This document shows positions 45,570 to 60,240 of a stretch of DNA of 64,000 nucleotides, one piece after another; position 1 is the stretch's first letter; each line of letters opens with the position of its first letter. The position numbers and the translations under genes are program-made. The notes under the pieces are model-generated. The model saw only the letters and a program-made list of their open reading frames with translations, had not been told where the DNA came from and did no database searches. The stretch is taken from contig NZ_CP053661.1 of NCBI RefSeq assembly GCF_013177315.1, forward strand, positions 3,596,001 through 3,660,000, read 5' to 3'. Origin of the DNA: Thermoleptolyngbya sichuanensis A183. Its GTDB lineage: Bacteria > Cyanobacteriota > Cyanobacteriia > Elainellales > Elainellaceae.

Positions 45570-46748
45570 TCACTGTCCGAGTGGGCTTGCGGCTGCTGGA
45601 CGGCTCTGTCGGCGAGGAATTTGGATAATAAACTCTGTGCCTTCATTCAGCTTGGAGCAGCACAAAAGCTGACCATGATGCTGGTCGGCGACAATCTGGT
45701 AGCTAATTGATAGTCCTAACCCCACGCCCTGGCCAACGGGCTTGGTCGTAAAGAACGGGTTAAACAACCGGGGGCGATCGCCCTCTGCTATCCCGATGCC
45801 ATTGTCAATCACATGGATTGCTACTGAATCGCCCGTTTGACGGGTTTTTAGCGTGATTTTTGGCGCTGGCTTCGGCTCCGCTGCCTGGCGATATCGCTCC
45901 TGCACCGCATCAATGGCGTTGGCCAGCAGGTTCATAAACACTTGATTTAACTTACCCGGATAACATTCGACCAAGGGCAGCGGCTCAAAATCTTTGACAA
46001 TTTCAATTTCGGGCAGGTCGCCACAGGCCTTGAGCCGATGTTGCAGAATCATCAGGGTGCTTTCTAAGCCCTCATGCAGGTCTGCATCTTTAAAGTCTGC
46101 TTCGTCGAGGCGTGAAAAAGTGCGGAGCGATCGCACAATATCGCTAATCCGCTTGGTGCCCATCTGCATAGATTGCAGCACCTTGGCTACATCCTGCTGC
46201 AAAAACTCCAGATCGATCTCCTCCAGCAGCGCCTGAATGCCAGGAGTTGGGATGGGATAAGCGTCCTGATAGGCGGCAATGACCCGCAGAAGTTCCTGGA
46301 CATAGGTCTGGGTGTAGTTCACGTTGCCATGCACAAAACCCACGGGATTGTTAATCTCGTGAGCAATCCCTGCGACCAACGTTCCCAGCGCCGACATCTT
46401 TTCAGCTTCAATCAGCTGAACCTGCGCCTGCTGCAACTGTGAGAGGGTTTGCTCCAGTTCTTCCCCGCGCCGCGCCAAAGAAGACCTCGATGCCTCCAGT
46501 TCTGCAATCACATTCCGCATGAGGTTTTCAGAGCGATCCATATTGGCTTCAAGGATTTGGCGATCGCGCTCTGAGCGTTCCAGTTTCTTGCGAAGAATCC
46601 GGTTCTCCTTCTCTAGCGCCGCCAGCCGTTGCGCTGGAGTCGGTTCGGAACTCTCCTGACATTCAACAGACCGCAGGGGCGTGGCACTGATGCAATTCTG
46701 AGCCGATGCAACAGAGGGAACAGCAACAAGCTTTTGGGCTATATCCAT
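45570..46748 (-). CDS. Sensor histidine kinase (cytosolic)
   Basis: 392 residues. No membrane segment. A coiled coil (about residues 40-118, RLAALEKENRILRKKLERSE) leads to a HisKA-type dimerisation helix with phosphoacceptor His130 in AGIAHEINNPVGFV. The ATPase domain has N-box NAIDAV, G1 VIDNGIGI, and VGQGVGLGLSISYQIV. No receiver domain. It starts exactly at the base after the FIST gene stop on the same strand, so it is a FIST-kinase pair. No response regulator is nearby. Confidence 0.92.
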   Translation of the reverse strand: MDIAQKLVAVPSVASAQNCISATPLRSVECQESSEPTPAQRLAALEKENRILRKKLERSERDRQILEANMDRSENLMRNVIAELEASRSSLARRGEELEQTLSQLQQAQVQLIEAEKMSALGTLVAGIAHEINNPVGFVHGNVNYTQTYVQELLRVIAAYQDAYPIPTPGIQALLEEIDLEFLQQDVAKVLQSMQMGTKRISDIVRSLRTFSRLDEADFKDADLHEGLESTLMILQHRLKACGDLPEIEIVKDFEPLPLVECYPGKLNQVFMNLLANAIDAVQERYRQAAEPKPAPKITLKTRQTGDSVAIHVIDNGIGIAEGDRPRLFNPFFTTKPVGQGVGLGLSISYQIVADQHHGQLLCCSKLNEGTEFIIQIPRRQSRPAAASPLGQ

Positions 46749-47912
46749 CTAAGCGGTTCCTAGCAGCAGGGTAACGAACGTGGAGTGATGCGCCCGGGAT
46801 GTCGTGTTTGGAGTCAGTGGAGCGATCTCGCCGTAGGTATAGAACCCGGCAGTGGCTGGCATCTGTGGCAGCGCTTCTTGAACCAGCTTGTATTCTTGCT
46901 GGGTCCGCAGGCCCAAGAGCGTATGACGTACACAGCAGGAAAACAAAAGCACGGCCTCGATGCGCTGTCCTGGATAGCTGGCCAAAGCCGCCTGCATAGA
47001 AGTGCGTGCGCCTCCGATAATTTCATCCCGGCTGCTTCGGGCAATTTGCACCTGGGCGTTTTGGGGCCAGAGGGGAATAGCCTGAATACTGCCTGTCTCT
47101 GAATCAAAGCCGATGGAAGCTCGAAGATAATAGCCATCTGCGCCCTCTTCCCAAACGGCCAGGGGAAACTCGGTCGAGGGCAACAAATCGTTCATGTAGC
47201 GCTGATAAAACTCTAGCGCTGGCCGATGGTCAATTTCCTGGAGGAGATGCCCATCAGCGCGGGTGATGGTTCCTCTTTCGCCCGTGGGTGTCCAGCCGTG
47301 GGCCACGCCATGACCCAGCTTCAGGTCTCCAAAAAACAGCAGGATGGGAATCGCATCCGTCAACACTTCGGAGCCGTAGAACTGATAGGTTTTTTGAAAC
47401 TGGCTTTGGTCGCCTGCAAAGCCGCCGAAGAGAGGAACCGAGTCGCCCAGCGCTTTTTGCAAATGAGCAACAACCAGGGGACTATCGTAGGTTAGGCTTT
47501 CAGGAAACGTGAGGCAGAGGGACGGAACCGCCTCGGCAGGGAGGTTCAGTCCGCTGCGGGCCTGGGCGATCGCCCGCTGAATGGCCGCTTCGGGATCTTG
47601 CGAGAGGTCGTAACCCACACCTGCACCAATGGCGAGAGTATCCGAGGCGATCGCCATCAGCACCACTGAGTCTTGCTGAAACGCTAGCTCAGACGACAGT
47701 TCACCATCGGTGGTGCAGCCGACGACGACCATCTCTGGAAAAGACGTACTCAGGGTTTCCAGAATCAGGCTGTGGTCAAAATCGAGCGCTGCAAACAGGA
47801 TGCCGACCTGGGGCGATCGCCCCTGAAGCTTTGTCTGACACTGCTCAATCACGTCCTTTGCAGCCGCATACGCGTCCGGATCGTCGCTATGGCCAATGGC
47901 AACCGTTAACAC
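46749..47912 (-). CDS. FIST-domain sensor protein
   Basis: 387 residues from GTG 47912, which has AAAGGAG six bases upstream; a longer frame to 47954 starts at TTG and was rejected. FIST_N and FIST_C domains: LTVAIGHSDDPDAYAAAKDV start, then GCTTDGELS, FAGDQ, and the C-terminal GFYTYGEIAPL. FIST domains are predicted to bind small ligands such as amino acids and to feed signal transduction. The histidine kinase follows immediately, so the protein probably supplies its input. Confidence 0.9.
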   Translation of the reverse strand: MLTVAIGHSDDPDAYAAAKDVIEQCQTKLQGRSPQVGILFAALDFDHSLILETLSTSFPEMVVVGCTTDGELSSELAFQQDSVVLMAIASDTLAIGAGVGYDLSQDPEAAIQRAIAQARSGLNLPAEAVPSLCLTFPESLTYDSPLVVAHLQKALGDSVPLFGGFAGDQSQFQKTYQFYGSEVLTDAIPILLFFGDLKLGHGVAHGWTPTGERGTITRADGHLLQEIDHRPALEFYQRYMNDLLPSTEFPLAVWEEGADGYYLRASIGFDSETGSIQAIPLWPQNAQVQIARSSRDEIIGGARTSMQAALASYPGQRIEAVLLFSCCVRHTLLGLRTQQEYKLVQEALPQMPATAGFYTYGEIAPLTPNTTSRAHHSTFVTLLLGTA

Positions 47913-48266
47913 CGCATTCTCCTTTGAAACTGACCAGCATTGCAGGCCGCACAAACCCTATGCTGCCGGGAATCAGCCGGGAGCGCTATCCCCAGTGATG
48001 CAGCAGTAAGGGCATCAGCCCGTGTAACTATTCAGATTATGAGTTTTGGCAAACGCTGATGACATCGGCAACAGGTCAGCCAGTTGGCGGAACTCCAAAC
48101 AACTTAGGCAATTCCTTAAAAAACGCAGATTTGCATGAGTTTTTAACAGGTTTTTCGCGACAACTGCCTCTTACATGGTTTAGCCTGTGCAAGGAAGATT
48201 CCGTGCCTAACTCGTGCCTAACTCGTGCCTAACTCGTGCCTAACTGTTGCATCAGCGAGGTGAGCT
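47913..48266. repeat. Spacer with four GTGCCTAACTC repeats before the TPR-CHAT gene
   Basis: At 48202-48243 the 11-bp unit GTGCCTAACTC occurs four times in tandem, ending about 20 bp before the ATG of the TPR-CHAT gene. The rest (47955-48200) shows no gene. Divergent promoters for the FIST and CHAT genes must lie here. Confidence 0.7.
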
Positions 48267-51200
48267 ATGAAACAACCCAACCTCACGGCAGCCCTGCTGC
48301 TGACGTGGCTCCTGGGCGGACAGATGCCAGGACTTGCGCTTGTGCCTGCAATTACGGGGCGATCGCCCGAACTGGTCGCCGCTCCCCGCGTGGCCCGCTC
48401 GCCAGCAGAGCCAACGCTGGCAGATGCCGAACGGCTGTATGAGGAGGTGAATCGACTCTATGCCCAGGGGCGCTATGAGGCGGCGCTGGATCGAGCTGAA
48501 CAGGCGCTGCGGGTGTTGGAACGGGCGCTGCCATCGACCAATCCCAATATTCCCCACGGATTTAACCAGGTGGCGATGCTGCTGAGCCTGCTGGAGCGCC
48601 ATGAAGAAGCCGAAAGCTATCACACCATTGCTCGCTTAATGACTCGCGGGGGCAAGGGCACGCCGATTGCGCCCGCTGCGATCGCCCAATTGACCCAGAC
48701 TTTTCCCCAAAGCGTGGTTGGGCAACTCGATGCCCGCAGCTTGCAGGCAAATCGTCACGGCTATCTGGAAGTGTTTGAGCCTGTGCTGTCCAGCGTGCCG
48801 CTCTCCCAATTGCCCCGGATGCCGCTGACGGGGGGCTATTTCAACCTCCACCAGTTTGATAGCGTGGCGGGACAGACGGTGAACCTGGCGGTCACGAGTG
48901 AGGATCTCGATGACTTAATCATTTTTGTGTTTAGCCGCCAGCAGGGGTTTATCGCCGCCGCCAGCGGTCGAGCAACTCAGATAGCGCTATCGCTCGAAGA
49001 CGCGGGCCCTTATCAGGTGATGGTGGGGTCTCGGACGGCGGGCCGCACGGGGCGCTATCGCCTGTGGTGGGGCAACGCCAGCGGCCGCGCAGCTACAAGC
49101 GCCCTCACCTATCGGGGAGAACACAATCGAGTTCCCAGGGGCGAAGAATATTCATTAGATAGCCTCTATACCCTGGCAGCCCCAAGGCTAGAGGAGCAGA
49201 TTGCGCGGTTGCGGGCTGAGAAGGGCGATCGCCACCCTGAGGTGGCCGAACCTCTCATCTCCCTGGCTACAAGTTATACCCTCCTGGGCCGCTGGGCCGA
49301 CGCGGGCAGTGCCTATGCAGAAGTCCTAGAGATTCTGCGGGCCCAGCCTCACCCCAATCCCCAGCACCTAGCCCAAGCGCTCGACGGCATGGCTTCGATG
49401 GCTTACCAGCAGGGGGATTTGGAACGAGCCGCAGCCCTCTATCAAGAGGCGCTTTCCTTGGAACGGGCCAGGCTGGGGCGGACTGCACTGCTGAATGGGG
49501 AGGAAGGCTTTGTAGCGCAGCGGGCGATCGCCGCGAGCTTACTGTCTCTGATTCAGGTCTACCAGGCTCAACAGCGATACGACGAAGCAGAACCGCTGCT
49601 CATCGAGATGATTGACCTCGCCAGACGCTTCAGCCAACCGTCAGAACGGGCCATTTTCCTAGAGGCAGCGTCCACCCTCTATCGCACCCAGGGCCGCAAT
49701 GCCGAGGCAGACGCTTTGGCTTTAGAAGCCTTTGAAGGCCAGCCGGCCGCGCCCAAAGAGCGTTCTCCCCGCGATCCAAACCAGCTCAATGGTCGAGCGC
49801 TGACATACCATAGCCAAGGGCGCTACGACGAGGCCGAGCGCCTCTACCGTCAGGCCCTGGCCGCATCGGAGGCTTGGTATAGCCGCGATTTGCAAGCCTT
49901 CCGAGCGCCCATTTTTTACAACCTTGCGGGTCTATACCAGGCCCAGGGAAAAATCCCGGCTGCGCTGGAGGTTTTGCAAGCGGGCATCGCCCTAGAGCAG
50001 CAAGAGTTTGATCGCCGCCTGGCCACGCTGAACGAAGTTGGACGACAGCGCTATGCAGCCTCGGTAGCCAACACACTGAACCACGCAATTTCGCTGCATT
50101 TAAACACTGCGCCAGACGATCTGGATGCGGCTCAACTGGCGGCGACGATGCTGCTACGTCGCAAGGGGCGGGTGCTGGAGGCAGGCATCACCACCCTAGC
50201 GCTGCTGGAGCAGGCCCCCAACCCAGAAGATGAGCGGCTGCTGGCCGAGCTGGATCGGCGGCGGCGACAGGTCGCAGAAATCACCTTTGCAGAACAGGGG
50301 TCTTCCCTGCAAGCGCAAGCCCAACTGAGGACGCTGCGGAGCCAAATCGATGAGATCGAAGCGGTGCTAGCCCGTCGCAGCGCGGCCCTGGCTGGGGATG
50401 CGCCGCTGGTGAACCTGGCAGACATTCAGGCCCGCCTGCCGACCGATGGCGCGTTGGTGGAGTATGTGCGCTACCGACCCTTTGACCCCCGCAATCCCCT
50501 GGGGCAAAAGCCAGCTAGCAACCTAAGTGACTGGAGCGACAGAGGGTTTGGTGACCCCCGCTATGCGGCCTACGTGCTGCTGCCGTCTGGGGAGGTGCGC
50601 TGGGCCGACTTGGGGGATGCAGCCGCCATTGAGGGGCAAATTCAGAGATTTCTGGAGTTTTTGCGCTGTGGCGAACGGCGGGCCACGCCCTGCTACGAGC
50701 CTGAACAGTTGCAGCCCGTTGCCCAGGCGCTTTACCAGATGGTGTTTGCGCCCGTTCAGCCCCACTTGGGCAACGCCGGCTATGTGCTGCTCTCTCCCGA
50801 CGGACATCTGAATCTGGTGCCCTTTGCGGCGCTGGCGGACGGGCAAAATCGCTACTTGATTGAAACCTACACCCTGACCTACCTCACCAGCGGGCGCGAC
50901 CTGCTGCGGCAAAAGCATACGGCTCCCCCACAGCAGCCCCCGGTGGTGTTGGCGAATCCAGACTTCGACACAGCCGATGCCCAGGGCGTGATTCAGGTGG
51001 CCTCTGCCAGTCGTGGAGGAGCGCGATCGCCCGATATGGGCAGCCTGCGGTTTGGGCCGCTGGCGGGTAGCGCCCTGGAAGTGGCAGCGATTCGTCCCTG
51101 GCTGGGGCAAAAGGCGGTGGTGCTGACCGAAGCTAGAGCCACAGAAAACGCCCTCAAGCAGGTGCAGGGGCCGAGCGTTTTGCACCTGGCCACTCACGGC

Positions 51201-51704
51201 TTCTTTTTGCCGGATGTCCCCATTTCCCCACCAGAAGCAGGGGTTGGAGCCTTTCCCCAGAGCGCCAATCGGGTCGAAAATCCGCTGCTGCGGTCGGGGC
51301 TGGCGCTGGCGGGCTTTAACCAGCGGGAGAGCGATGGCGAAGATGGCGTACTCACAGCCCTGGAGGTGGCCAGTCTGAACCTGCGAGGGACGCGCCTGGT
51401 AGTGCTGAGTGCCTGCGAAACCGGATTGGGGGATGTGGCTGATGGCGAAGGGGTTTACGGGTTGCGCCGAGCGTTTGTGCTGGCGGGGGCCGAAAGCCTG
51501 CTGATGAGCCTGTGGCAGGTGAGCGATCGCCGCACGGCTGACCTCATGCAGCAATACTATGAACGCCTGGCGCAAGGAACCGGGCGCAGCGAGGCCCTGC
51601 GTCAGGTGCAGCTCGCGGCGCTGCAAAACCCAGCCCATCGCCATCCCTACTTTTGGGCCGCCTTTTTCCTCTCAGGACAGTGGACCCCGATGGAGTCGCT
51701 CTGA
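48267..51704 (+). CDS. TPR-repeat protein with C-terminal CHAT (caspase-like) domain
   Basis: 1145 residues. Signal-like N-terminus (LTAALLLTWLLGGQMPGLALV) may export it. A tetratricopeptide stretch runs at 53-100 and a further TPR array about 330-610 (ALTYHSQGRYDEAERLYRQAL and similar). Between them is a ~150-residue beta domain (VNLAVTSEDLDDLIIFVFSR). The CHAT domain occupies about 780-1143, with the dyad His977 (LHLATHGFFLP) and Cys1050 (LVVLSACETGLGD). CHAT proteases are separase/caspase relatives; cyanobacterial HetF is of this type. Alternative start downstream would lose the signal. Likely functionally linked to the CHAT-CHASE2 cluster 486 bp downstream. Confidence 0.9.
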   Translation: MKQPNLTAALLLTWLLGGQMPGLALVPAITGRSPELVAAPRVARSPAEPTLADAERLYEEVNRLYAQGRYEAALDRAEQALRVLERALPSTNPNIPHGFNQVAMLLSLLERHEEAESYHTIARLMTRGGKGTPIAPAAIAQLTQTFPQSVVGQLDARSLQANRHGYLEVFEPVLSSVPLSQLPRMPLTGGYFNLHQFDSVAGQTVNLAVTSEDLDDLIIFVFSRQQGFIAAASGRATQIALSLEDAGPYQVMVGSRTAGRTGRYRLWWGNASGRAATSALTYRGEHNRVPRGEEYSLDSLYTLAAPRLEEQIARLRAEKGDRHPEVAEPLISLATSYTLLGRWADAGSAYAEVLEILRAQPHPNPQHLAQALDGMASMAYQQGDLERAAALYQEALSLERARLGRTALLNGEEGFVAQRAIAASLLSLIQVYQAQQRYDEAEPLLIEMIDLARRFSQPSERAIFLEAASTLYRTQGRNAEADALALEAFEGQPAAPKERSPRDPNQLNGRALTYHSQGRYDEAERLYRQALAASEAWYSRDLQAFRAPIFYNLAGLYQAQGKIPAALEVLQAGIALEQQEFDRRLATLNEVGRQRYAASVANTLNHAISLHLNTAPDDLDAAQLAATMLLRRKGRVLEAGITTLALLEQAPNPEDERLLAELDRRRRQVAEITFAEQGSSLQAQAQLRTLRSQIDEIEAVLARRSAALAGDAPLVNLADIQARLPTDGALVEYVRYRPFDPRNPLGQKPASNLSDWSDRGFGDPRYAAYVLLPSGEVRWADLGDAAAIEGQIQRFLEFLRCGERRATPCYEPEQLQPVAQALYQMVFAPVQPHLGNAGYVLLSPDGHLNLVPFAALADGQNRYLIETYTLTYLTSGRDLLRQKHTAPPQQPPVVLANPDFDTADAQGVIQVASASRGGARSPDMGSLRFGPLAGSALEVAAIRPWLGQKAVVLTEARATENALKQVQGPSVLHLATHGFFLPDVPISPPEAGVGAFPQSANRVENPLLRSGLALAGFNQRESDGEDGVLTALEVASLNLRGTRLVVLSACETGLGDVADGEGVYGLRRAFVLAGAESLLMSLWQVSDRRTADLMQQYYERLAQGTGRSEALRQVQLAALQNPAHRHPYFWAAFFLSGQWTPMESL

Positions 51705-52190
51705 ACATTGAATAGGTGTTGAGTCCAGGGAACTACTGTTCCAAAGATTCGGGCTGATCTCCCCCTTAGGTCTCTACTGTGTACACACATCTTGATGGTT
51801 TGCGTCATGCGCTGCAAGACCCCCCTAAATCCCCCTTGGTAAGGGGGACTTTCGGAGTGGCTCGGTTCCCCCCTTATTTTGCAAGACCCCCCTAAATCCC
51901 CCTTGGTAAGGGGGACTTTCGGAGTGGCTCGGTTCCCCCCTTATTTAAGGAGGGTTAGGGGGGATCACAGCATCGCTACTCAGGCATAGAAGACTTGTAT
52001 GTACACCGCAGCCTAGCCCCCTTTGAGGAGGAAGTTAGGGCGAAAGTCCACTGTTTTAGTTTTCAAGCAGACGGATGGGATCTGAGGGGCTGGATTTCTG
52101 AGAACAAAGCCCACGCGCAGGGTCACGCTATGGTTTAGGCGGGGTCGCCTCTTTGATTGAAATGCTGCTGTTGATTCGGTCATAGGATTC
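51705..52190. repeat. Spacer with 67-bp tandem repeat and CCCCCTAAATCCCCCTT palindromes
   Basis: A 67-bp unit occurs twice in tandem (51813-51879 and 51880-51946), each with TGCAAGACCCCCCTAAATCC then CCCTTGGTAAGGGGGACTTT. The repeat block ends TTAGGGGGGATCAC. No gene and no clear terminator; the promoter of the sigma-like gene should be in the last 150 bases. Same repeat type as at 12942-13013 and 28252-28353. Confidence 0.75.
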
Positions 52191-53549
52191 ATGGATAACG
52201 TTTTTCGCTATTGGCAACTGGTGCGATTGACTAGCACCGGCCAGTCCCAACCGATAGAACTGCCTACCGTGAAGACCTGGCTAGAGGACACCTATGCTGA
52301 TGCATTGCTCGATTTGGAGGGGGCAGACCGCAGGCTGCAACAGGCGTTGTGGGGCGTATGGCAGGGGCAAGACAGCGGTCACGACCTGGCCCAGATGAGC
52401 CTGCGCTGCTGGATTTCCCACCAGATTCGCAATACCTGCGTCAGTTTGGCCCAGCGCTATGGCGATCGCCACGGGCTAGAAGCAGCCGATCTGTTTCCGC
52501 TGGTGCTGGATGACAATGGCCACGCCAAACCCACCTATCGCCCCCTCAGCCTGGAGATTCTCACCAGCTTTGACCCCGCCAAAGCCAGCCTGGGCACTTG
52601 GTGCAACTTGCTAACCAAGAGCCACCCAGCCCTAACGCGCCTGCTGCTGGAAAAGGGCATCTACCTGGCTAGCGACTGGGCCATTCTGAATGACAGCGAG
52701 AGGGAGCGGGTGCGGCGAATTTTGAGGGAGTATCACCTCTGGAGCGACTTTGAAATTGACCAGGCCGTAGAACTTCTGGCTCGCTATCAGGCGGTGTATC
52801 AGCGCGATCGCCTCCGCCAGCGACAGGCTGGACAAACCGGGCGCTGCCCCGAACCGACCCCCGCCCAACTCCAGGAAATGATGCCGTCCCTTAGCCCCAA
52901 AGCGGTCAAGGCCCAGCTCAAACACCTGGCCAGCCAACTGCGCCAGTACCGCATCCACGCCCGCAGCGGCAACCCCCAAATCTACCAGCCCCAGGACGAC
53001 GGCGAGCTAGAGCGCCTGGGCGGATCTCAGACCCGTTTTGAGGCCGAAGACGACTCCAACACATTTCTCCGCCGCTATCGTCAGGCCCTCGACCAGTTGC
53101 TTGGGCAGACCATTGCGGAGGCGATCGCCGCCAACGTGTCTCGGTTGAGCCGCCGCACCCCGCCCCAGGATGGGCCCTATGTCCAGGGGCTACACCTGCG
53201 CCTCTGCGAGGGAGTTTCCATGACCCAAATTGCGCCCCGCATCGGGCTGACCTCTCAAGTGCAGGTCACACGCCTGCTGAATCTAAAGCGGCTGCGGGCG
53301 GACGTGCGCCATATCCTGATTCCCCAACTCACCGCAGCGGTGCGGCAGGAAGCAGCAGAGTTGGTATCTGCCGATCGCCTCCGAACCCTCGATGCCACCC
53401 TAGAAACCCTCCTGTCTGAGCAGGTAGACACCCTGATGGCAGATGCGGCCGCCGAGGCCCAGTCCCCCAAACCCCGCAAGGTCAAGAGTCGATTTGCCGC
53501 TCGCCTCTGCGCCAAAATCCACACCTTTCTGACAGGTCAAACCCCATGA
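52191..53549 (+). CDS. Divergent sigma-70-like protein
   Basis: 452 residues. The C-terminal half holds a region-4-type helix-turn-helix: SMTQIAPRIGLTSQVQVTRL then LNLKRLRADVRHILI, and a preceding helical bundle could stand for regions 2-3, though I cannot see the usual region 2.3-2.4 aromatic pattern. This gene type occurs before DUF1822 genes in cyanobacteria. It may be a transcription factor or an inactive relative. The last codon overlaps the DUF1822 start (ATGA, 53546-53549), so the two are translationally coupled. No membrane segment. Confidence 0.65.
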   Translation: MDNVFRYWQLVRLTSTGQSQPIELPTVKTWLEDTYADALLDLEGADRRLQQALWGVWQGQDSGHDLAQMSLRCWISHQIRNTCVSLAQRYGDRHGLEAADLFPLVLDDNGHAKPTYRPLSLEILTSFDPAKASLGTWCNLLTKSHPALTRLLLEKGIYLASDWAILNDSERERVRRILREYHLWSDFEIDQAVELLARYQAVYQRDRLRQRQAGQTGRCPEPTPAQLQEMMPSLSPKAVKAQLKHLASQLRQYRIHARSGNPQIYQPQDDGELERLGGSQTRFEAEDDSNTFLRRYRQALDQLLGQTIAEAIAANVSRLSRRTPPQDGPYVQGLHLRLCEGVSMTQIAPRIGLTSQVQVTRLLNLKRLRADVRHILIPQLTAAVRQEAAELVSADRLRTLDATLETLLSEQVDTLMADAAAEAQSPKPRKVKSRFAARLCAKIHTFLTGQTP

Positions 53550-54742
53550 ACCCACGGATAATAGCCTCTATTCCCTTTGTCTCCATTCCCTTTGTCTCTA
53601 TTCCCTCTCTGAGCCTGCACCCCATGCGCCATTCCACCGAACTCTCAGACTATGCGTTTGAACCGCTGCAACCGACAACGGTGGTGCTGCCCCCTGCTGC
53701 GGTGGACTGGGCAGTGCAGATTTGCCAGCAAGTGTCCCCAGAGCAGCAGTGGATGACGTTTTTGCGGGCGCTGGCGCTGCGGGGGGTGCAGCAGTGGTTG
53801 GAGGACGGCGCTTCAGGCTTGACGCTGACCTACGACCCAGCCCAGCCGCCGGGTTCGGAGGTGCAGGGAACGGTCAACGGGTTTCGCCTCTGCATTGTGC
53901 CCCAGGGAACCCTCAGCGATGGCCAGGTGCCTCTTCCACAACGCACTCTAGAAGATGCCCACACCTTTGCTCATCTATATCTGCTGGTGGAGGTGCGCGA
54001 AGAGGCCGACCAGGTGACGATTCTGGGTGGTCTGCGGCGCGATCGCCTGCTGGCCCAGCAAGACTTGCTCCTTCGACACCCCAACGGCACATCCCTCATT
54101 CCCGTAGCCTGCTTCGACACGGCTCCTGAGGAAATTCTGCTCTATCTCAACTGCCTCAGCCCCGCCCAGTTGGAAACAGGGGGTCAACTGCCCCAAGCCG
54201 CTTCCCCAACCCAGGAGGCGATTAATGTATGGCGCTGGCTGGGCGATCGCCTCGATACGCTAGCCAACACCGTGACCAGTACCCTGACCTGGGCGCTGCT
54301 GCCGCCGCTGGTGATGTCCCCCGCGCTGCGGTCGAGCCACGGCCCGGCGGAAACCCTGGCCACCGTGCTGCGTCAGCTAGAACCGGCTGGGGTGGTGATT
54401 CCCCCCACGGCCAGGGGAGCCTATACAGATTTGCAACGGGCGGGCGTGCCCCTGCGCCTTTGTGCCCTCACCTGGACGCATCTGGAAGGGCCCCAGCCGG
54501 AATGGTGTTTGCTGTTGGTGCTGGGGCCGACCCCCGGTGAGCAGATCTTGCCGGGGACGCGCCTGGTGGTGCGCGATGCCGAAACGATCCTGGCCGATAG
54601 CACCCTCTCTCCGGGTTCAGGCGCAAACCACCTCTATGCCCAGGTCTTTGGCACCTGGGAGGAAGCCTTCAGGGTTTCCGTTACCCTGCCGGATGGGGCG
54701 ACCCTGAGCTGGCCGCCCTTTGTGTTTCATCCCGAAGCATGA
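53546..54742 (+). CDS. DUF1822-family protein
   Basis: 398 residues, a cyanobacteria-specific family of unknown function. Core begins about residue 27: HSTELSDYAFEPLQPTTVVLP. A conserved FLRALALRGVQQWL segment follows, and the C-terminus ends WPPFVFHPEA. The first 25 residues contain a repeated IPFVSIPFVSIPSLS coded by a tandem slippage block; start may be 53546 (coupled) or MRHST at 53624. No membrane segment. Followed after 10 bp by the CHAT-CHASE2 gene. Confidence 0.88.
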   Translation: MNPRIIASIPFVSIPFVSIPSLSLHPMRHSTELSDYAFEPLQPTTVVLPPAAVDWAVQICQQVSPEQQWMTFLRALALRGVQQWLEDGASGLTLTYDPAQPPGSEVQGTVNGFRLCIVPQGTLSDGQVPLPQRTLEDAHTFAHLYLLVEVREEADQVTILGGLRRDRLLAQQDLLLRHPNGTSLIPVACFDTAPEEILLYLNCLSPAQLETGGQLPQAASPTQEAINVWRWLGDRLDTLANTVTSTLTWALLPPLVMSPALRSSHGPAETLATVLRQLEPAGVVIPPTARGAYTDLQRAGVPLRLCALTWTHLEGPQPEWCLLLVLGPTPGEQILPGTRLVVRDAETILADSTLSPGSGANHLYAQVFGTWEEAFRVSVTLPDGATLSWPPFVFHPEA

Positions 54743-54752
54743 GGGGGCAGCA

Positions 54753-57152
54753 ATGGTCTATCGCCTCACCGTCCACAAAATCGACCAAAGCTGTCTGTTT
54801 GACCTGTCTTGGGGCGAGGGGCAGCGGCTCACCGCCAGTGTGGTCTTGCCAGAGGGGCTGCTGTCGCTCTATGCAGCTTGGCAGCGGGCCTACCTGGGCT
54901 ATTACAAGCAGGCATTGCGGGGGCGGGCAGGGGGCGCAGGGCAGGTGGTCGCCCCCGCGATCGACTGGCATAGCCAACTGGTGCAGGCAGAGGCGGGGCT
55001 GTTGTCGGAGTTTCACACCTGGCTGAAACAGGGCGATCTCTACGATTTGCGCCAAGAAGTCGTGGCGGCGGCCCAGGCTCAAGGGGTTGCGGAACTGTTT
55101 CTCACCTGCACGCCGCTGGATCTGGCTCGACTGCCTTGGGAAACCTGGGAACTGGGTGCGCCAGTGCAAATCGTGCGATCGCCCGCCACGATCCGAGCCA
55201 CCACAGCCCACCGACCCACTGGCCGACGCAGCAAGGCCAGGGTGCTGGCAATTTTGGGCGACGAAACAGGGCTGAACTTTAGCGGCGAACGACAGACCCT
55301 CAATGCCCAGCGGCGACTCCTGGAGGTTCAATACCTGGGCTGGCAACCGGGAGAAGACCCCATTGCCTTGAAGCAGCGAGTGTGTGAGGCGATCGCCGAT
55401 CCGCTGGGGTGGGACGTGCTGTTTTTTGCGGGCCACAGCAATGAGGCGGCCCTGGTGGGCGGACAAGTGGCGATCGCCCCCCAAACCACCCTCACCCTCA
55501 AAGACCTGACTCCCTATTTGCAAACCGCCCAGCAGCGGGGACTCCAGTTTGCCCTCTTCAACTCGTGCAGCGGCCTCGACATCGCCCAGGGGCTCATTAA
55601 CCTCGGCCTCAGCCAGGTCGCCATCATGCGAGAGCCGATTCATAACGAAGTCGCCCAGGCGTTTTTGGTGCAACTGCTGCAACGGCTAACCCAGGGGCAC
55701 AACGTGCAGGAGGCGCTGCACGGAGCCTGTCAGAGTCTCCGAGCCGAGCAAAGCCTCACCTATCCCTCGGCCTACCTGGTGCCGTCGCTGTTTCGCCACC
55801 CGACCTCCGTGCCCTATCGCCTGGAACCCCAAGGCTGGCGATCGCGGCTGCGGCGCTGGCGGCCCACCGGGCGCGAAGCCCGGATCGTCGCGGCCCTGGC
55901 GCTGGTGAGCCTGATCCCAACGCTGCCGCCGACGGAATTTCCAGTTTCGCCCCAGGCCTGGCTGCTGGATCGGCGGGTGCTGGCCCAGGCCGTTTATCGG
56001 GACCTCACTGGGCAACTGGGAGACGACGACCCATCCGCCGTGGTGCTGGTGCAGATCGATGGCGAAAGCTTCCGCCAGTGGGATATTTCCACCTACCACC
56101 CAATCAACCGGGCGATGGTGGCTGATATTGTCGCCGCGCTGGTCGATCGAGGTGCGGCCGTCGTGGGCATCGACTACCTGCTCGATTTGGCTCAGCCGGA
56201 GCAGGATGAGCAACTGAACAGGGTTCTGACCGAGGCGATCGCCCAGCAGCAAACCTGGTTTGTGTTTGGCACGGTGCGACAGAACGGCCGCTGGCTGCCG
56301 CCCCATCCCAATGTCATCGATCCAGACCGCGTTCTGTTGGGAGATGCCTGGTTGCCCTGGCGACGGGTGCAGCCCTACCGCCCCCACAGCGATCGCCCCG
56401 GCCCGTTTAGCCACCAGCTTGTTGTGGCCCAACGGCTCCGTCAACGGCGACGCACAGGGACGCTCTTCGGGCCACAGCCCACGCTCCAGGGGCCGCCCCT
56501 AGCTGAGCAGGTTCGCCGCTACCCGCAAACCCACGAGCTGGATCTGTCCCCACGGGCTACGCTGCACCCAATCACCGAGTTGTCCTACGATGCCTGGCAG
56601 CACTGGCTCCAGCCGATTCTTGATTTGTCTCTGCCGCCAGAGCGGGCGTTTACTGCCATCCCTGCCTGGTCGCTGCGTCAGGATGCAGCAGCGTCGCCCG
56701 ACTTTAAGGACGCGATTGTGATCGTGGCCGCAGGGGGCTACGAAGCGGCCGGGCTGGCCCCCGATGGAGCCGACAACCTGGTGCCGCCGCCCGCCCTGCG
56801 CTATTGGCGCGATCGCACGCTGCACCCCGCCACCCACTTCACAGGTGGCGAAGCTCACGCCTACATGACCCACCACCACCTCGCCCATCGGCTGGTCATC
56901 CCCATCCCCGACCTGTGGATGATTCTGCTGGCGGCGGTGGGCGGCAAGGCTCTAAGTCTGTATTTGGGCGATCGCCCCTACCCACGTCGCCTGGTTGCAG
57001 CAGGGCTGGTGGCTGCGACCGCTGGATATGGGCTGCTGTCTCTGCAACTCTACATCAGCGCCGGGGTGCTGCTGCCCTGGCTACTGCCATCCCTGGCGGT
57101 GTGGTGTTATAGTTTACCCAGACTACGGGAGAATACGGATGAACCTCGTTAA
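54753..57152 (+). CDS. CHAT-CHASE2 membrane protein (caspase-like inside, sensor outside)
   Basis: 799 residues from ATG 54753, with GAGGGG upstream. CHAT domain about 100-350: His228 in DVLFFAGHSNEA, Cys272 in LFNSCSGLDIA, the expected dyad. A membrane helix (IVAALALVSLIPTLPP, ~378-393) leads to a CHASE2 domain about 400-690 (AVVLVQIDGESFRQWDISTYHP, cut to QIDGESFRQW; VDRGAAVVGIDYLLD). The C-terminus has three hydrophobic segments (ending LLPSLAVWCYSLPRL). CHASE2 is an extracellular sensory module, so a signal may control the CHAT protease. A 14-bp overlap with the DUF928 gene shows coupling. Confidence 0.92.
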   Translation: MVYRLTVHKIDQSCLFDLSWGEGQRLTASVVLPEGLLSLYAAWQRAYLGYYKQALRGRAGGAGQVVAPAIDWHSQLVQAEAGLLSEFHTWLKQGDLYDLRQEVVAAAQAQGVAELFLTCTPLDLARLPWETWELGAPVQIVRSPATIRATTAHRPTGRRSKARVLAILGDETGLNFSGERQTLNAQRRLLEVQYLGWQPGEDPIALKQRVCEAIADPLGWDVLFFAGHSNEAALVGGQVAIAPQTTLTLKDLTPYLQTAQQRGLQFALFNSCSGLDIAQGLINLGLSQVAIMREPIHNEVAQAFLVQLLQRLTQGHNVQEALHGACQSLRAEQSLTYPSAYLVPSLFRHPTSVPYRLEPQGWRSRLRRWRPTGREARIVAALALVSLIPTLPPTEFPVSPQAWLLDRRVLAQAVYRDLTGQLGDDDPSAVVLVQIDGESFRQWDISTYHPINRAMVADIVAALVDRGAAVVGIDYLLDLAQPEQDEQLNRVLTEAIAQQQTWFVFGTVRQNGRWLPPHPNVIDPDRVLLGDAWLPWRRVQPYRPHSDRPGPFSHQLVVAQRLRQRRRTGTLFGPQPTLQGPPLAEQVRRYPQTHELDLSPRATLHPITELSYDAWQHWLQPILDLSLPPERAFTAIPAWSLRQDAAASPDFKDAIVIVAAGGYEAAGLAPDGADNLVPPPALRYWRDRTLHPATHFTGGEAHAYMTHHHLAHRLVIPIPDLWMILLAAVGGKALSLYLGDRPYPRRLVAAGLVAATAGYGLLSLQLYISAGVLLPWLLPSLAVWCYSLPRLRENTDEPR

Positions 57153-57897
57153 AACCCCAGCAATCCCCCTAAGCCTGTGGGTCGGTCTGTGGGTGGGACT
57201 ATCCGCTCTGTCCCCATCCATCGCCCTAGCAAACCCCACCGACCCCTCCCAAGCAGACTCTCAAGGCGCTGGTTCCTGGCGGCGCTTTGTGGAATTTTTT
57301 CAGCGCGAGCGAGAAGATCGCAGCCGGGGCGAGCCGGGGCTATCCCGCGGCCCCGATGTCCCCCCCGACGACTCCTTTTGCATTGTCACCCCTGGACGGC
57401 GCGAAGTGGTCTGGCACCAGCAGCCGATGTTTGTCATGCAGGGGCAGGTGAATCGAATGCACCTGCGGCCCGCCTGGAAAGACCTGACCCAGCCCGCGCC
57501 CGCCACGCTGGGAACCGATTCGGCAACCCCCAACGCTGATGGCTTCGTGACGACTCGCTTTGGCAATCTGGCGCTGGAACCTGGCGCTGAGTACGAGTGG
57601 CTCTTCTACGACACGCCCGCCGATGACCTGCTCTACCGTTTGCCCTTCTCCATCATGGCAGCCGGAAAAGAGCGGGATCAAATTGCCGCTGATCTGGCCC
57701 AGATGGAAACGGAGTTGGCGCAGCAGGGAGCCAATCGGGAGGCGATCGCCCAGGCCAAGGCCGCCTATTTCCTGGAAAAAGACATGCCCGCCGATGCGCT
57801 GCATGTCCTCTTTGCAGTTGCCAATCCCACGCCAGATTGGGTTGCCCTCCAGTCCGAGGCGATCGCGGCGATTTGCAGTTTTCCCCTGGGGCTATAG
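57139..57897 (+). CDS. DUF928-like exported protein
   Basis: 252 residues, start ATG 57139 inside the end of the CHAT-CHASE2 gene. Signal peptide (LWVGLWVGLSALSPSIALA). A mature charged region, then a beta domain ending about 175 (PDDSFCIVTPGRREVVWHQQPMFVMQG, cut to VTPGRREVVWHQQPMF; EPGAEYEWLFYDTP) and a helical C-terminal half (ERDQIAADLAQMETELAQ). Matches DUF928, which accompanies CHAT/CHASE2 genes in cyanobacteria. It may be the external partner of CHASE2. Confidence 0.85.
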   Translation: MNLVKTPAIPLSLWVGLWVGLSALSPSIALANPTDPSQADSQGAGSWRRFVEFFQREREDRSRGEPGLSRGPDVPPDDSFCIVTPGRREVVWHQQPMFVMQGQVNRMHLRPAWKDLTQPAPATLGTDSATPNADGFVTTRFGNLALEPGAEYEWLFYDTPADDLLYRLPFSIMAAGKERDQIAADLAQMETELAQQGANREAIAQAKAAYFLEKDMPADALHVLFAVANPTPDWVALQSEAIAAICSFPLGL

Positions 57898-57980
57898 GCA
57901 CCACCGGGTGAATCAGTTGCTATTTGCCAGAACTAGAAAGAGCCAGTGTTAACTTGTTAACTAATTTTTCCAACCTGACA

Positions 57981-58496
57981 ATGGCTCGACAACCGATTCC
58001 TACAACCCCGTCCTCCATCATGGGGCGATCGCTACTGGTTGCCTGTGCTGCCCTATCTGTCCTGGGTGCCGCTAGGGAAAGTGCGATCGCCTCCAGCAGC
58101 TCGCAAGCCGATGCCCTGCGCGGCTTCTCGCAAATGCCTGTGCGAGTTATGAAACTCTGTCATTTGGGCAGTCGTGAAGAGCAACTGCAAGCGGCGGTGG
58201 TGCAATACCTCAATCGCCATGACGTTCCGGCTGTCTCTAACCCACGCGGACAACCTGTGGCTACCCCGCGATACGTAATCGCCATTGAATGTACCGACGA
58301 TGGTGGGGCGATTAGTGTCAGAGGCCGTGTGTTTCACAACGTCCAACTCAATGGCCGCACCATTGAAGCCGATATCTACAGCAGGGGGGGAGGATATGGA
58401 TCTCTAGGTTATCGGGTCAGTTACGCTCAGGCCGAACGAGATCTGCTGACAGGTCTGCTAGACACATTCATCCGGGATTGGCGATCGACCCGGTAA
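57981..58496 (+). CDS. Exported protein of unknown function
   Basis: 171 residues from MARQPIPTTPS. Signal-like segment (SLLVACAALSVLGAARESAIAS). Mature part has two cysteines (MKLCHLGS, IECTDDGG) and ends FIRDWRSTR. No family recognised. Starts 83 bp after the DUF928 stop, same strand. A TTG start at 57924 is possible but would precede a poor leader. Confidence 0.7.
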   Translation: MARQPIPTTPSSIMGRSLLVACAALSVLGAARESAIASSSSQADALRGFSQMPVRVMKLCHLGSREEQLQAAVVQYLNRHDVPAVSNPRGQPVATPRYVIAIECTDDGGAISVRGRVFHNVQLNGRTIEADIYSRGGGYGSLGYRVSYAQAERDLLTGLLDTFIRDWRSTR

Positions 58497-58697
58497 AGCA
58501 TTACAGACTGAGGAATTGCGCCCCGTTGCGTTCGTTTCTGCGAACTACCTCGCCTTTCCCCTGTGATGGACACGTTCTTCCTCGTTAGCACGACCGGCCT
58601 TCAAAAAGTGGTCATCGCAAATTGGCTGAATAAGTGCGTCCCATCCAGAACTATGACCCGGCAACTGCAATTCAACCCGTTTATGAGGACTTGCCCC

Positions 58698-59384
58698 ATG
58701 CAGATTTCTCGCGCTCATCGGTGCGCCCTTGCGCTAGGCTTACCTGGCTTGGCTCTCACCTCACTACTGGGAAGCGCACCCAGCCTCGCCGCTGCCCAAC
58801 CCTCAAGCGCAGCCCACGTCGCCGCAGGCAATCCGGCAATCGTAACGAACCCGTTGGAAGCCCCGCAAGCGCTCAATACCACTCATCTACCTGTTCAAAA
58901 TTTTCAGGAGAATCCAGTTTCTACTCACTATCTCCTGTCTCAAACTCCCCGTGAAGTCAATCGCATTAGATTGCAGCAGCAGGCTGAAGCCTACAGACGA
59001 CGGGCAGAGGAACGCAGGCGACGGGCTGAACAGCAGCGGCAACAGGCCCAGGAACGCAGACAGCGGTATGAAGAACGCCAACAGCGCATCGCTGAACAAC
59101 ATCGGCTAGAAGCAGAGCGGCGGCGGCGATATTTTGAAAGTCTTTCTCCAGAACAGCAGCAGGCCTATTTAGCCCAGCAGAGAGCTTTGAGACAGCAAGC
59201 GGATCAGGCTGCTGCCCTCTTCTGGATATGGATACTTTCAAATAGCTTGAGTTCAGGCGGGTCTGGTTCTGCTCCGTCACGTAGTCCTGACTACTATGTG
59301 GTTCCAGACAATCGGCCCGCTCCTCAGCCCGCTCCTGCGCCAGTTGCTCCCATCAGCCCCTTCTATGGCGATCGCCACTGGTAG
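58698..59384 (+). CDS. Exported coiled-coil protein rich in Arg/Glu/Gln
   Basis: 228 residues. GAGGA lies 8 bases before ATG 58698. Signal peptide (ALALGLPGLALTSLLGSAPSLAAA). The middle (EVNRIRLQQQAEAYRRRAEE to the LSPEQQQAYLAQQ) is a long charged coiled coil, then a hydrophobic segment (AALFWIWILSNSL) and a Pro-rich tail ending FYGDRHW. No named family. Frame is open further upstream to 58563, but that part lacks a signal. Confidence 0.7.
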   Translation: MQISRAHRCALALGLPGLALTSLLGSAPSLAAAQPSSAAHVAAGNPAIVTNPLEAPQALNTTHLPVQNFQENPVSTHYLLSQTPREVNRIRLQQQAEAYRRRAEERRRRAEQQRQQAQERRQRYEERQQRIAEQHRLEAERRRRYFESLSPEQQQAYLAQQRALRQQADQAAALFWIWILSNSLSSGGSGSAPSRSPDYYVVPDNRPAPQPAPAPVAPISPFYGDRHW

Positions 59385-59526
59385 CCCTCAATACGCCCCA
59401 GTCTCATAGCACTGGGGCGCTCCACTCAATTCCATAGCGCTGAATAAGTCCAGACCACAGAGAACTAAAAACTTGCAATTAGCCCCCACTTTAGAACTTG
59501 ACTTTAAAACTTGAAGGAAGCCTCCC

Positions 59527-60240
59527 ATGCCATACCCCATCGCTCGTTACCTTATTCGCGCTAGTCATACTCGCAAACTGCAACTCCCCAGCCTGATTCT
59601 CGCTTCACTCCTCAGCGCTTCTCCCAGCCTTGCCGCAACTCAAGTCCGTGGAGTCACCATCCCTGGCGAATCTAGCCCAGTGTTGACGGCTAACATTTTC
59701 CGGCGCATTCGTGAAACCGTTCGAGATGTTACAGATACGATCAATACAATTGACTCATCCTTCCCGCGAAGCAACAGGGGCGATCGCAGCAACCCATCTC
59801 CCCAAGCCCAGCCTGCCCCGCAGCCCCAGTCCGCCCCACCCAGCGCGAACTCTGCCCCTTCTGCGCCTCCCGCGTCTCGCCCTGCTCCGGCTTCGAGCGA
59901 TATCCAGGTGGTTCATCGAGATAATGCACCCAGTCGCTGTCAAGCTCAAGGCAATACCCTGCTCAGATGTGAAGCCTTTCAAATCGCAAGGGTTCACTCT
60001 GAAGGCGCTCTGGTCTTTAGCTACTACTTTAATGGCAGTCCCTTTTCGTTTGTCACTGATGCCGCTTCTGAATTTCGCTTGGATCATGCCTCAAGCTATC
60101 GTGTTGTGGGGCTGATGTATGGTGGCGAAACAAGAGAGATACGTGGCTCCTGCGGTGTCACTCTCATCGGTGGTCAATATCGAGGAGCCATCTGCCAAGC
60201 CGAGAACGGTATAGAGTTTACGTATCTCAACCGCAATTAA
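59527..60240 (+). CDS. Exported protein of unknown function
   Basis: 237 residues. Shine-Dalgarno GAAGGAA about 8 bases before ATG. Signal peptide (LPSLILASLLSASPSLAAT). Pro/Ala-rich linker about residues 90-125 (QAQPAPQPQSAPPSANSAP), then a C-terminal globular region with paired Cys (SRCQAQGNTLLRCEAFQ; GSCGVTLIGGQYRGAICQAENG). Not recognised. Part of a row of small exported genes after DUF928. Confidence 0.72.
   Translation: MPYPIARYLIRASHTRKLQLPSLILASLLSASPSLAATQVRGVTIPGESSPVLTANIFRRIRETVRDVTDTINTIDSSFPRSNRGDRSNPSPQAQPAPQPQSAPPSANSAPSAPPASRPAPASSDIQVVHRDNAPSRCQAQGNTLLRCEAFQIARVHSEGALVFSYYFNGSPFSFVTDAASEFRLDHASSYRVVGLMYGGETREIRGSCGVTLIGGQYRGAICQAENGIEFTYLNRN

Follow-up and report, generated by a model that had tools for sequence, protein, structure and literature searches.

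In the RseA/DegS pathway, signals from the envelope cause a membrane-spanning anti-sigma factor to be attacked by proteases, the first of which is extracytoplasmic. In the type III-E CRISPR system CASP, the TPR-CHAT protein Csx29 cuts the sigma inhibitor Csx30 and so relieves CASP-sigma (PMC10028731). HetF of Anabaena is a CHAT protein and a putative protease that depends on its active site to function (PMC8406250). Kaur et al. (2021, eLife, PMC8195603), in the part of their study devoted to EACC2-caspase proteins, described members with CHASE2 tails that adjoin DUF1822 and an extracytoplasmic function (ECF) sigma factor; in their proposal, a signal triggers autoproteolysis. The present analysis concerned a locus of this kind at positions 52191-57897 of a 64,000-nucleotide stretch of the Thermoleptolyngbya sichuanensis A183 genome (contig NZ_CP053661.1, 3,596,001 to 3,660,000), hereafter the window, where genes for a sigma-like, a DUF1822, a CHAT-CHASE2 and a DUF928-like protein follow one another. 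The initial annotation of this locus had found no assigned function for the combination; because the caspase-CHASE2/ECF sigma/DUF1822 neighbourhood figures in that part of the 2021 study, the combination is not unrecorded.

A transmembrane relay from protease to sigma factor was judged the best explanation of the module, with a probability of about one half. An extracytoplasmic cue would be sensed by CHASE2 together with the exported DUF928 protein and would turn on the CHAT domain, which the CHASE2-bearing membrane protein carries on its cytosolic side. CHAT would then cut DUF1822, or make it let go of the co-encoded sigma factor that DUF1822 would normally keep inactive. The freed sigma factor would guide RNA polymerase to TGCATAAG/ATATA promoters, and its targets would be its own operon (a positive feedback), the exported TPR-CHAT protein, small exported proteins and, in some genomes, C14 caspases exported by a twin-arginine translocation (Tat)-type route. 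The cleavage of Csx30 by Csx29 indicates that a CHAT protease can work through the cutting of a sigma inhibitor (PMC10028731). The four genes of the window are:

52191..53549, + strand: sigma-70-family factor, 452 aa, assigned by hhalign and AlphaFold2 (AF2) fold
53546..54742, + strand: DUF1822 protein, candidate anti-sigma factor (Pfam PF08852, 8e-27; AF2)
54753..57152, + strand: CHAT-CHASE2 protein with a cytosolic N-terminal domain in the EACC2 position, CHAT, a transmembrane segment, extracytoplasmic CHASE2 and C-terminal transmembrane segments (Pfam, alignment, hydropathy)
57139..57897, + strand: DUF928-family exported protein, predicted signal peptide ending ..SIALA/NP (Pfam matches of orthologues)

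When open reading frames (ORFs) were checked, the junctions between these genes were found to be a 4-bp ATGA overlap, a 10-bp gap and a 14-bp overlap, respectively; the coordinates and overlaps given for the four genes in the initial annotation were exact. The start of the DUF1822 gene is uncertain, as an internal Met (~53624) lines up with orthologue starts, and with that start the ATGA overlap would vanish. Pfam confirmed the DUF1822, CHAT and CHASE2 domains, and predicted topology agreed with the proposed spread of the products from cytosol to exterior. By hydropathy, N-terminal signals were absent from the CHAT-CHASE2, sigma and DUF1822 proteins, and a hydrophobic N-terminal core was found in 50/69 DUF928 and 39/44 TPR-CHAT proteins. 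A scan of the operon for consensus sigma-70 promoters and terminators returned sites no commoner than in shuffles.

Linkage was counted in two samples, 40 cyanobacterial genomes with 101 CHAT-CHASE2-type matches and, independently, a scan of GTDB species genomes that gave 80 loci, all of them cyanobacterial, 71 close ones being used for the counts. In the 40 genomes, DUF1822 lay upstream of CHAT-CHASE2, at most 3 kb away and on the same strand, in 87/101 matches, and a sigma gene was additionally present at 21 of the 25 closest matches. Among the 71 close loci, sigma and DUF1822 genes preceded CHAT-CHASE2 in 38/54 evaluable cases, DUF928 followed it in 53/64 (median overlap 8 bp), and a TPR-CHAT gene was present at 36/71. 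Sigma and DUF1822 genes overlapped or were at most 30 bp apart at 32/47 junctions. When copies were swapped inside genomes holding several loci, only 2/192 arrangements (the real one counted) matched the tree correlation observed between sigma and DUF1822, and swaps as good as the observed arrangement amounted to 10/1536 for DUF1822-CHAT, 7/192 for sigma-CHAT and 8/192 for CHAT-DUF928. These findings show that the module is inherited as a unit with its partners diverging together, which is compatible with cognate binding, and that the order sigma, DUF1822, CHAT-CHASE2, DUF928 is an old cyanobacterial module.

The partners of the sigma and DUF1822 genes varied. The pair stood alone at seven loci (L072, L074-L077, L079, L080), beside a C14 caspase at two (L087 and L088; Peptidase_C14 6e-19 and 4e-21, respectively) and beside a large nSTAND1-WD40 protein, with a caspase-like start judged by eye, at two more (L071, L073). 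In relatives of the CHAT-CHASE2 protein the tail behind CHAT was CHASE2, nSTAND1-WD40 or a periplasmic-binding domain (Peripla_BP_6), and DUF1822 was constant throughout. Because of the lone pairs, the C14 swap and the variable tails, the core of the module appears to be sigma plus DUF1822, and its input a protease of the caspase fold whose sensor can change. An apparent sigma-DUF1822 fusion ORF at two loci (L034, L114) was discarded, the sigma N-terminus being in another frame and frameshifts being likely.

The first protein of the module was recognised as a sigma factor by profile comparison and by structure prediction. Pfam sigma models matched neither the window protein nor any of 19 near relatives. 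The profile of the clade aligned with that of a sister family, A7, over 326 columns (hhalign probability 99.3%, E 2.4e-20); Sigma70_r4 is found in 12/12 members of A7 and Sigma70_r2 in 8/12, and A7 also matches the solved chains of FliA, SigF and SigW. In a VIA search with the AF2 model (mean predicted local distance difference test score, pLDDT, 88.4; long extra helices), sigma factors topped the list, with Z 8.3 to sigma-S and SigA, and region 2 alone superposed at a root-mean-square deviation (rmsd) of 3.2 over 93 residues (Z 7.4). A Z near 8 is weak on its own for a helical protein and convincing together with the profile match. By homology and predicted fold, then, the product of 52191..53549 is a real sigma-70-family member with regions 2 and 4, which bears out its earlier description as sigma-like. 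Homologues occur on 18 cyanobacterial plasmid records (e.g. NZ_AP017563.1, AP018209.1), five of them predicted to be conjugative, and ten plasmid-borne copies among the matches listed are annotated as hypothetical. Leptolyngbya boryana and Tolypothrix PCC 7601 are among the cyanobacteria with a homologue of the sigma. Three cysteines, C73, C83 and C440 in window numbering, are near-invariant across the clade and may form a metal or redox site. Clade sigmas with no adjoining DUF1822 were seen at L083:17819-19333, L085:7650-9008 and L086:6749-8167.

In the CHAT-CHASE2 protein of the window, CHAT was matched at 3e-9 and CHASE2 at 9e-14. The GHS motif and the SC of the NSC motif were invariant across 32 aligned homologues, down to approximately 20% identity; both motifs were present in 86/87 full-length orthologues, the remaining one having SSC, and the His and Cys were kept in all 87. 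The CHAT dyad had been numbered correctly as His228/Cys272, and both features on which the initial annotation had made its module idea depend, an intact dyad and co-conserved genes, were found. The N-terminal ~95 residues, in the EACC2 position, were also conserved in the 32-sequence alignment, with W43, Y47 and W90 invariant. The profile of the protein had no match among PDB sequences at E up to 1, there was no match to the NCBIfam Csx29 model, and the score with the NCBIfam HetF equivalog, 14 bits, fell far short of the cut-off (1200).

The AF2 model of DUF1822 (pLDDT 85.7) comprised two domains joined by a low-confidence linker (residues 213-222) and had no TPR solenoid. The best VIA rows for the N domain were PD-(D/E)XK nucleases (D212, Z 9.1, rmsd 3.7 over 128 residues; Eco15I, Z 8.9; DpnI, Z 8.5), and those for the C domain were immunoglobulin (Ig)-like and CBM-like sandwiches with Z up to 7.2. 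The near-invariant columns of a 58-sequence alignment included no Asp, Glu or Lys, and a working nuclease is therefore unlikely. Comparison with PDB sequences gave weak matches to MHC and other chance matches. A sigma-like ORF was found directly 5' of DUF1822 in nearly all DUF1822 loci examined, lone pairs included. Since the pairs stand alone or with a C14 caspase in place of CHAT, DUF1822 is a candidate anti-sigma factor, on the grounds of pairing, gene order and analogy.

The module extends past 52191-57897 on both sides, to a TPR-CHAT gene that precedes it and to genes for exported proteins that follow. The name DUF928-like proved right for the family, PF06051 being matched by 9/16 aligned orthologues and by distant-branch neighbours at 1e-31 to 1e-57; the window copy itself had no Pfam match. 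The TPR-CHAT protein of the window scored 10.3 bits against the Csx29 model (cut-off 300), and owing to the signal-like N-termini of its family it is more likely an exported output than a protease acting on DUF1822. At five loci (L095, L098, L109, L112, L149) a TPR-CHAT gene precedes CHAT-CHASE2-DUF928 in place of sigma and DUF1822, and may encode an alternative partner.

Upstream of the sigma, TPR-CHAT and exported-protein genes, a two-box motif was found, TGCATAAG followed after approximately 16-17 nt by ATATA; sigma-gene upstream regions share AAYTGCATAAGY-N7-11-CCAGAAATATA. A position weight matrix (PWM) was trained on sigma-gene upstream regions only, and the window sites lay outside the training set. 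The flanking genes and motif sites of the window are:

48267..51704, + strand: TPR-CHAT protein, probably exported, signal-like segment 8-26, His977/Cys1050 dyad (Pfam CHAT 2e-91, and TPR)
51706..51736, + strand: motif CATTGAATAGGT-n7-CCAGGGAACTAC, PWM 19.0, just past the TPR-CHAT stop and 454 bp before the sigma gene
57906..57938, + strand: motif, PWM 13.8, before the exported-protein gene with probable ATG at 57981
57924..58496, + strand: exported protein of no recognised family, real start probably 57981
58563..59384, + strand: exported protein of no recognised family, real start probably 58683 or 58698
58624..58656, + strand: motif GGCTGAATAAGT-n9-CCAGAACTATGA, PWM 19.4
59438..59468, + strand: motif CGCTGAATAAGT-n7-ACAGAGAACTAA, PWM 15.9
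59527..60240, + strand: predicted exported protein, N-terminal ..LASLLSASPSLA judged by eye; no export flag in the hydropathy scan and no Pfam match

Between 51.7 and 60.3 kb of the window there were four motif sites, before the sigma gene and three consecutive exported-protein genes, compared to 0.1 expected. The sigma-gene regions scored above 9 in 50/64 cases compared to 14% of shuffles, and most exceeded the 1% null level. In 40/64 scored matches TGCATA began 24 bp before ATA, the geometry of a -35/-10 pair, and many gene-assigned matches ended approximately 26-60 bp before the start codon. TPR-CHAT genes, on which the matrix had not been trained, scored at least 13.8 in 18/49 cases (p 2e-7 versus other ORFs), and their upstream scores were higher in sigma-bearing genomes (p 2.5e-4, base composition partly controlled). 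The motif preceded 11/72 other exported ORFs and 11/231 ORFs counted as non-exported, some of which are Tat-signal C14 caspases (Fisher p 0.007, rank test p 0.11). It preceded 4/171 internal operon genes, and 1/96 ORFs at loci of genomes with no sigma of this clade. The 5.5 Mb genome contains two sites of a strict form, one of them at 58624; strict IUPAC forms matched 3/40 genomes and were too narrow for a genome-wide regulon. The motif differs from the SigJ J-Box GGGaAtacT.

Twin-arginine N-termini were seen in the products of three motif-bearing genes, L146:12098-14290, L153:17016-19271 and L094:3196-5469, the first two being C14 caspases with DUF4384 that are apparently exported. At 51810-51960 of the window, between the 51706 motif and the sigma gene, a palindromic unit with C-rich and G-rich parts, ccccctaaatcccccttggtaagggggactttcgg, is repeated in tandem. 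Upstream and divergent, at 45570-47954 on the minus strand, lie a FIST-domain gene and a histidine-kinase-type gene; the latter ORF holds a motif match of 19.0 near its annotated start, and the true start of the kinase may therefore lie further in. A broken second copy of sigma-DUF1822-CHAT-CHASE2 is present in the same genome (L054, G000:C1:2797113-2803465), with its sigma and CHAT-CHASE2 genes split across several frames with stops.

Several findings weigh against a relay from CHAT through DUF1822 to the sigma factor. In fold and profile rows DUF1822 resembled neither Csx30 nor a known anti-sigma fold, a missing match that excludes nothing; its linker is variable, and a conserved cleavage motif was not apparent. 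At 16/54 evaluable CHAT-CHASE2 loci no complete sigma-DUF1822 pair lay nearby, some of these having TPR-CHAT or nothing, and the membrane protein can therefore have other targets. The tree test does not separate cognate binding from duplication as a single unit. In the part of the 2021 study concerned, DUF1822 was annotated as TPR, which would imply an adaptor role (PMC8195603). Under the autoproteolysis proposed there for the caspase-CHASE2 architecture, the caspase domain would cut its own protein, a fragment would act with the sigma factor and DUF1822 would be an adaptor or co-activator, the main difference from the relay thus being the substrate. The modelled nuclease-like and Ig-like fold of DUF1822, in which no anti-sigma fold was recognised, is in keeping with such a role, but DUF1822 is the constant partner of the sigma factor even where the protease is missing, and a direct sigma regulator therefore fits better than a protease adaptor; autoproteolysis was considered unlikely.

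Somewhat less probable is that the motif belongs to another regulator, the sigma-like protein being a degenerate DNA-binding protein and the genes merely co-regulated. The sigma protein does lack a Pfam match and carries long extra helices, and the motif was assigned to it by position and co-occurrence; against this stand the promoter-like spacing of the boxes and their distance from the starts, the rarity of the motif where the sigma is missing and its dissimilarity to the J-Box. Improbable, too, is a conflict or cell-death module whose output would be killing or abortive infection, with the protease activating death effectors and the sigma factor on a side branch. Related caspase, nSTAND and TRADD-N systems are read as apoptosis or immunity in the corresponding part of Kaur et al. 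(PMC8195603), and C14 caspases and exported TPR-CHAT proteins are among the products of motif-bearing genes, but no meaningful match to a PADLOC defence model and no phage homologue was found, and the apparent targets are mostly exported, the signal-like N-termini of TPR-CHAT pointing to action outside the cytosol. Chance adjacency with no common pathway is contradicted by the linkage across diverse cyanobacteria (87/101 and 53/64) and was regarded as extremely improbable.

The protease-to-sigma relay has a broader form, which we hold tentatively, at slightly under even probability: a widespread and overlooked cyanobacterial sigma clade may be controlled by a caspase-like, membrane-spanning protease through the destruction of DUF1822, which would be an anti-sigma factor of a new class with an inactive nuclease-like fold. 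The clade would have a promoter class to itself and a regulon in which exported proteases and caspases figure, and the whole would be a CRISPR-free counterpart of Csx29/Csx30/CASP-sigma (no search aimed at arrays or Cas7-11 was made). Cyanobacteria have many caspase-like proteins with mostly unidentified substrates, and the relay, if true, would give one large group of them a substrate in DUF1822, would provide a defined promoter motif as readout together with a target gene set, and would extend the sigma factors by a clade that escapes censuses based on Pfam.

Compared to RseA/DegS, the module would share the logic that leads from envelope to sigma factor and would differ in that its protease itself crosses the membrane and DUF1822 is cytosolic. 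Like HetF, the CHAT-CHASE2 protein is a cyanobacterial CHAT protein; the role of HetF, in contrast, is in cell division and heterocysts (PMC8406250). The locus resembles the EACC2-caspase neighbourhoods with no TRADD-N in having a caspase-like dyad, a variable tail that may be CHASE2, and ECF sigma and DUF1822 neighbours. The 2021 paper does not mention DUF928, and in the part of it that covers these neighbourhoods TPR-CHAT linkage, the exchange of C14 for CHAT and the promoter-like motif were not found; DUF1822 is TPR there and was modelled here as PD-(D/E)XK-like plus Ig-like, and the window sigma clade is invisible to Pfam (PMC8195603). New here are thus DUF928 and the exported TPR-CHAT protein as members, the protease swap, the non-TPR fold of DUF1822 and the promoter-like motif. 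In contrast to CASP, the input would be a membrane CHASE2 domain instead of a guide RNA, the CHAT protein is a different one, the apparent targets are exported, and similarity of DUF1822 to Csx30 was not detected. A minimal trio in a 1.7 Mb genome (L084:6112-11680), in which TPR-CHAT, a clade sigma and a 395-aa ORF that belongs to no Pfam family are consecutive, has a layout even nearer to Csx29/CASP-sigma/Csx30. As in CASP, the genes of a CHAT protease and an ECF-like sigma factor lie together with that of a partner whose two domains are joined by a flexible linker, an arrangement that would place transcription under the control of the protease (PMC10028731). The relay, if true, would suggest that the release of sigma factors by CHAT proteases is a design of bacteria in general and not a CRISPR oddity.

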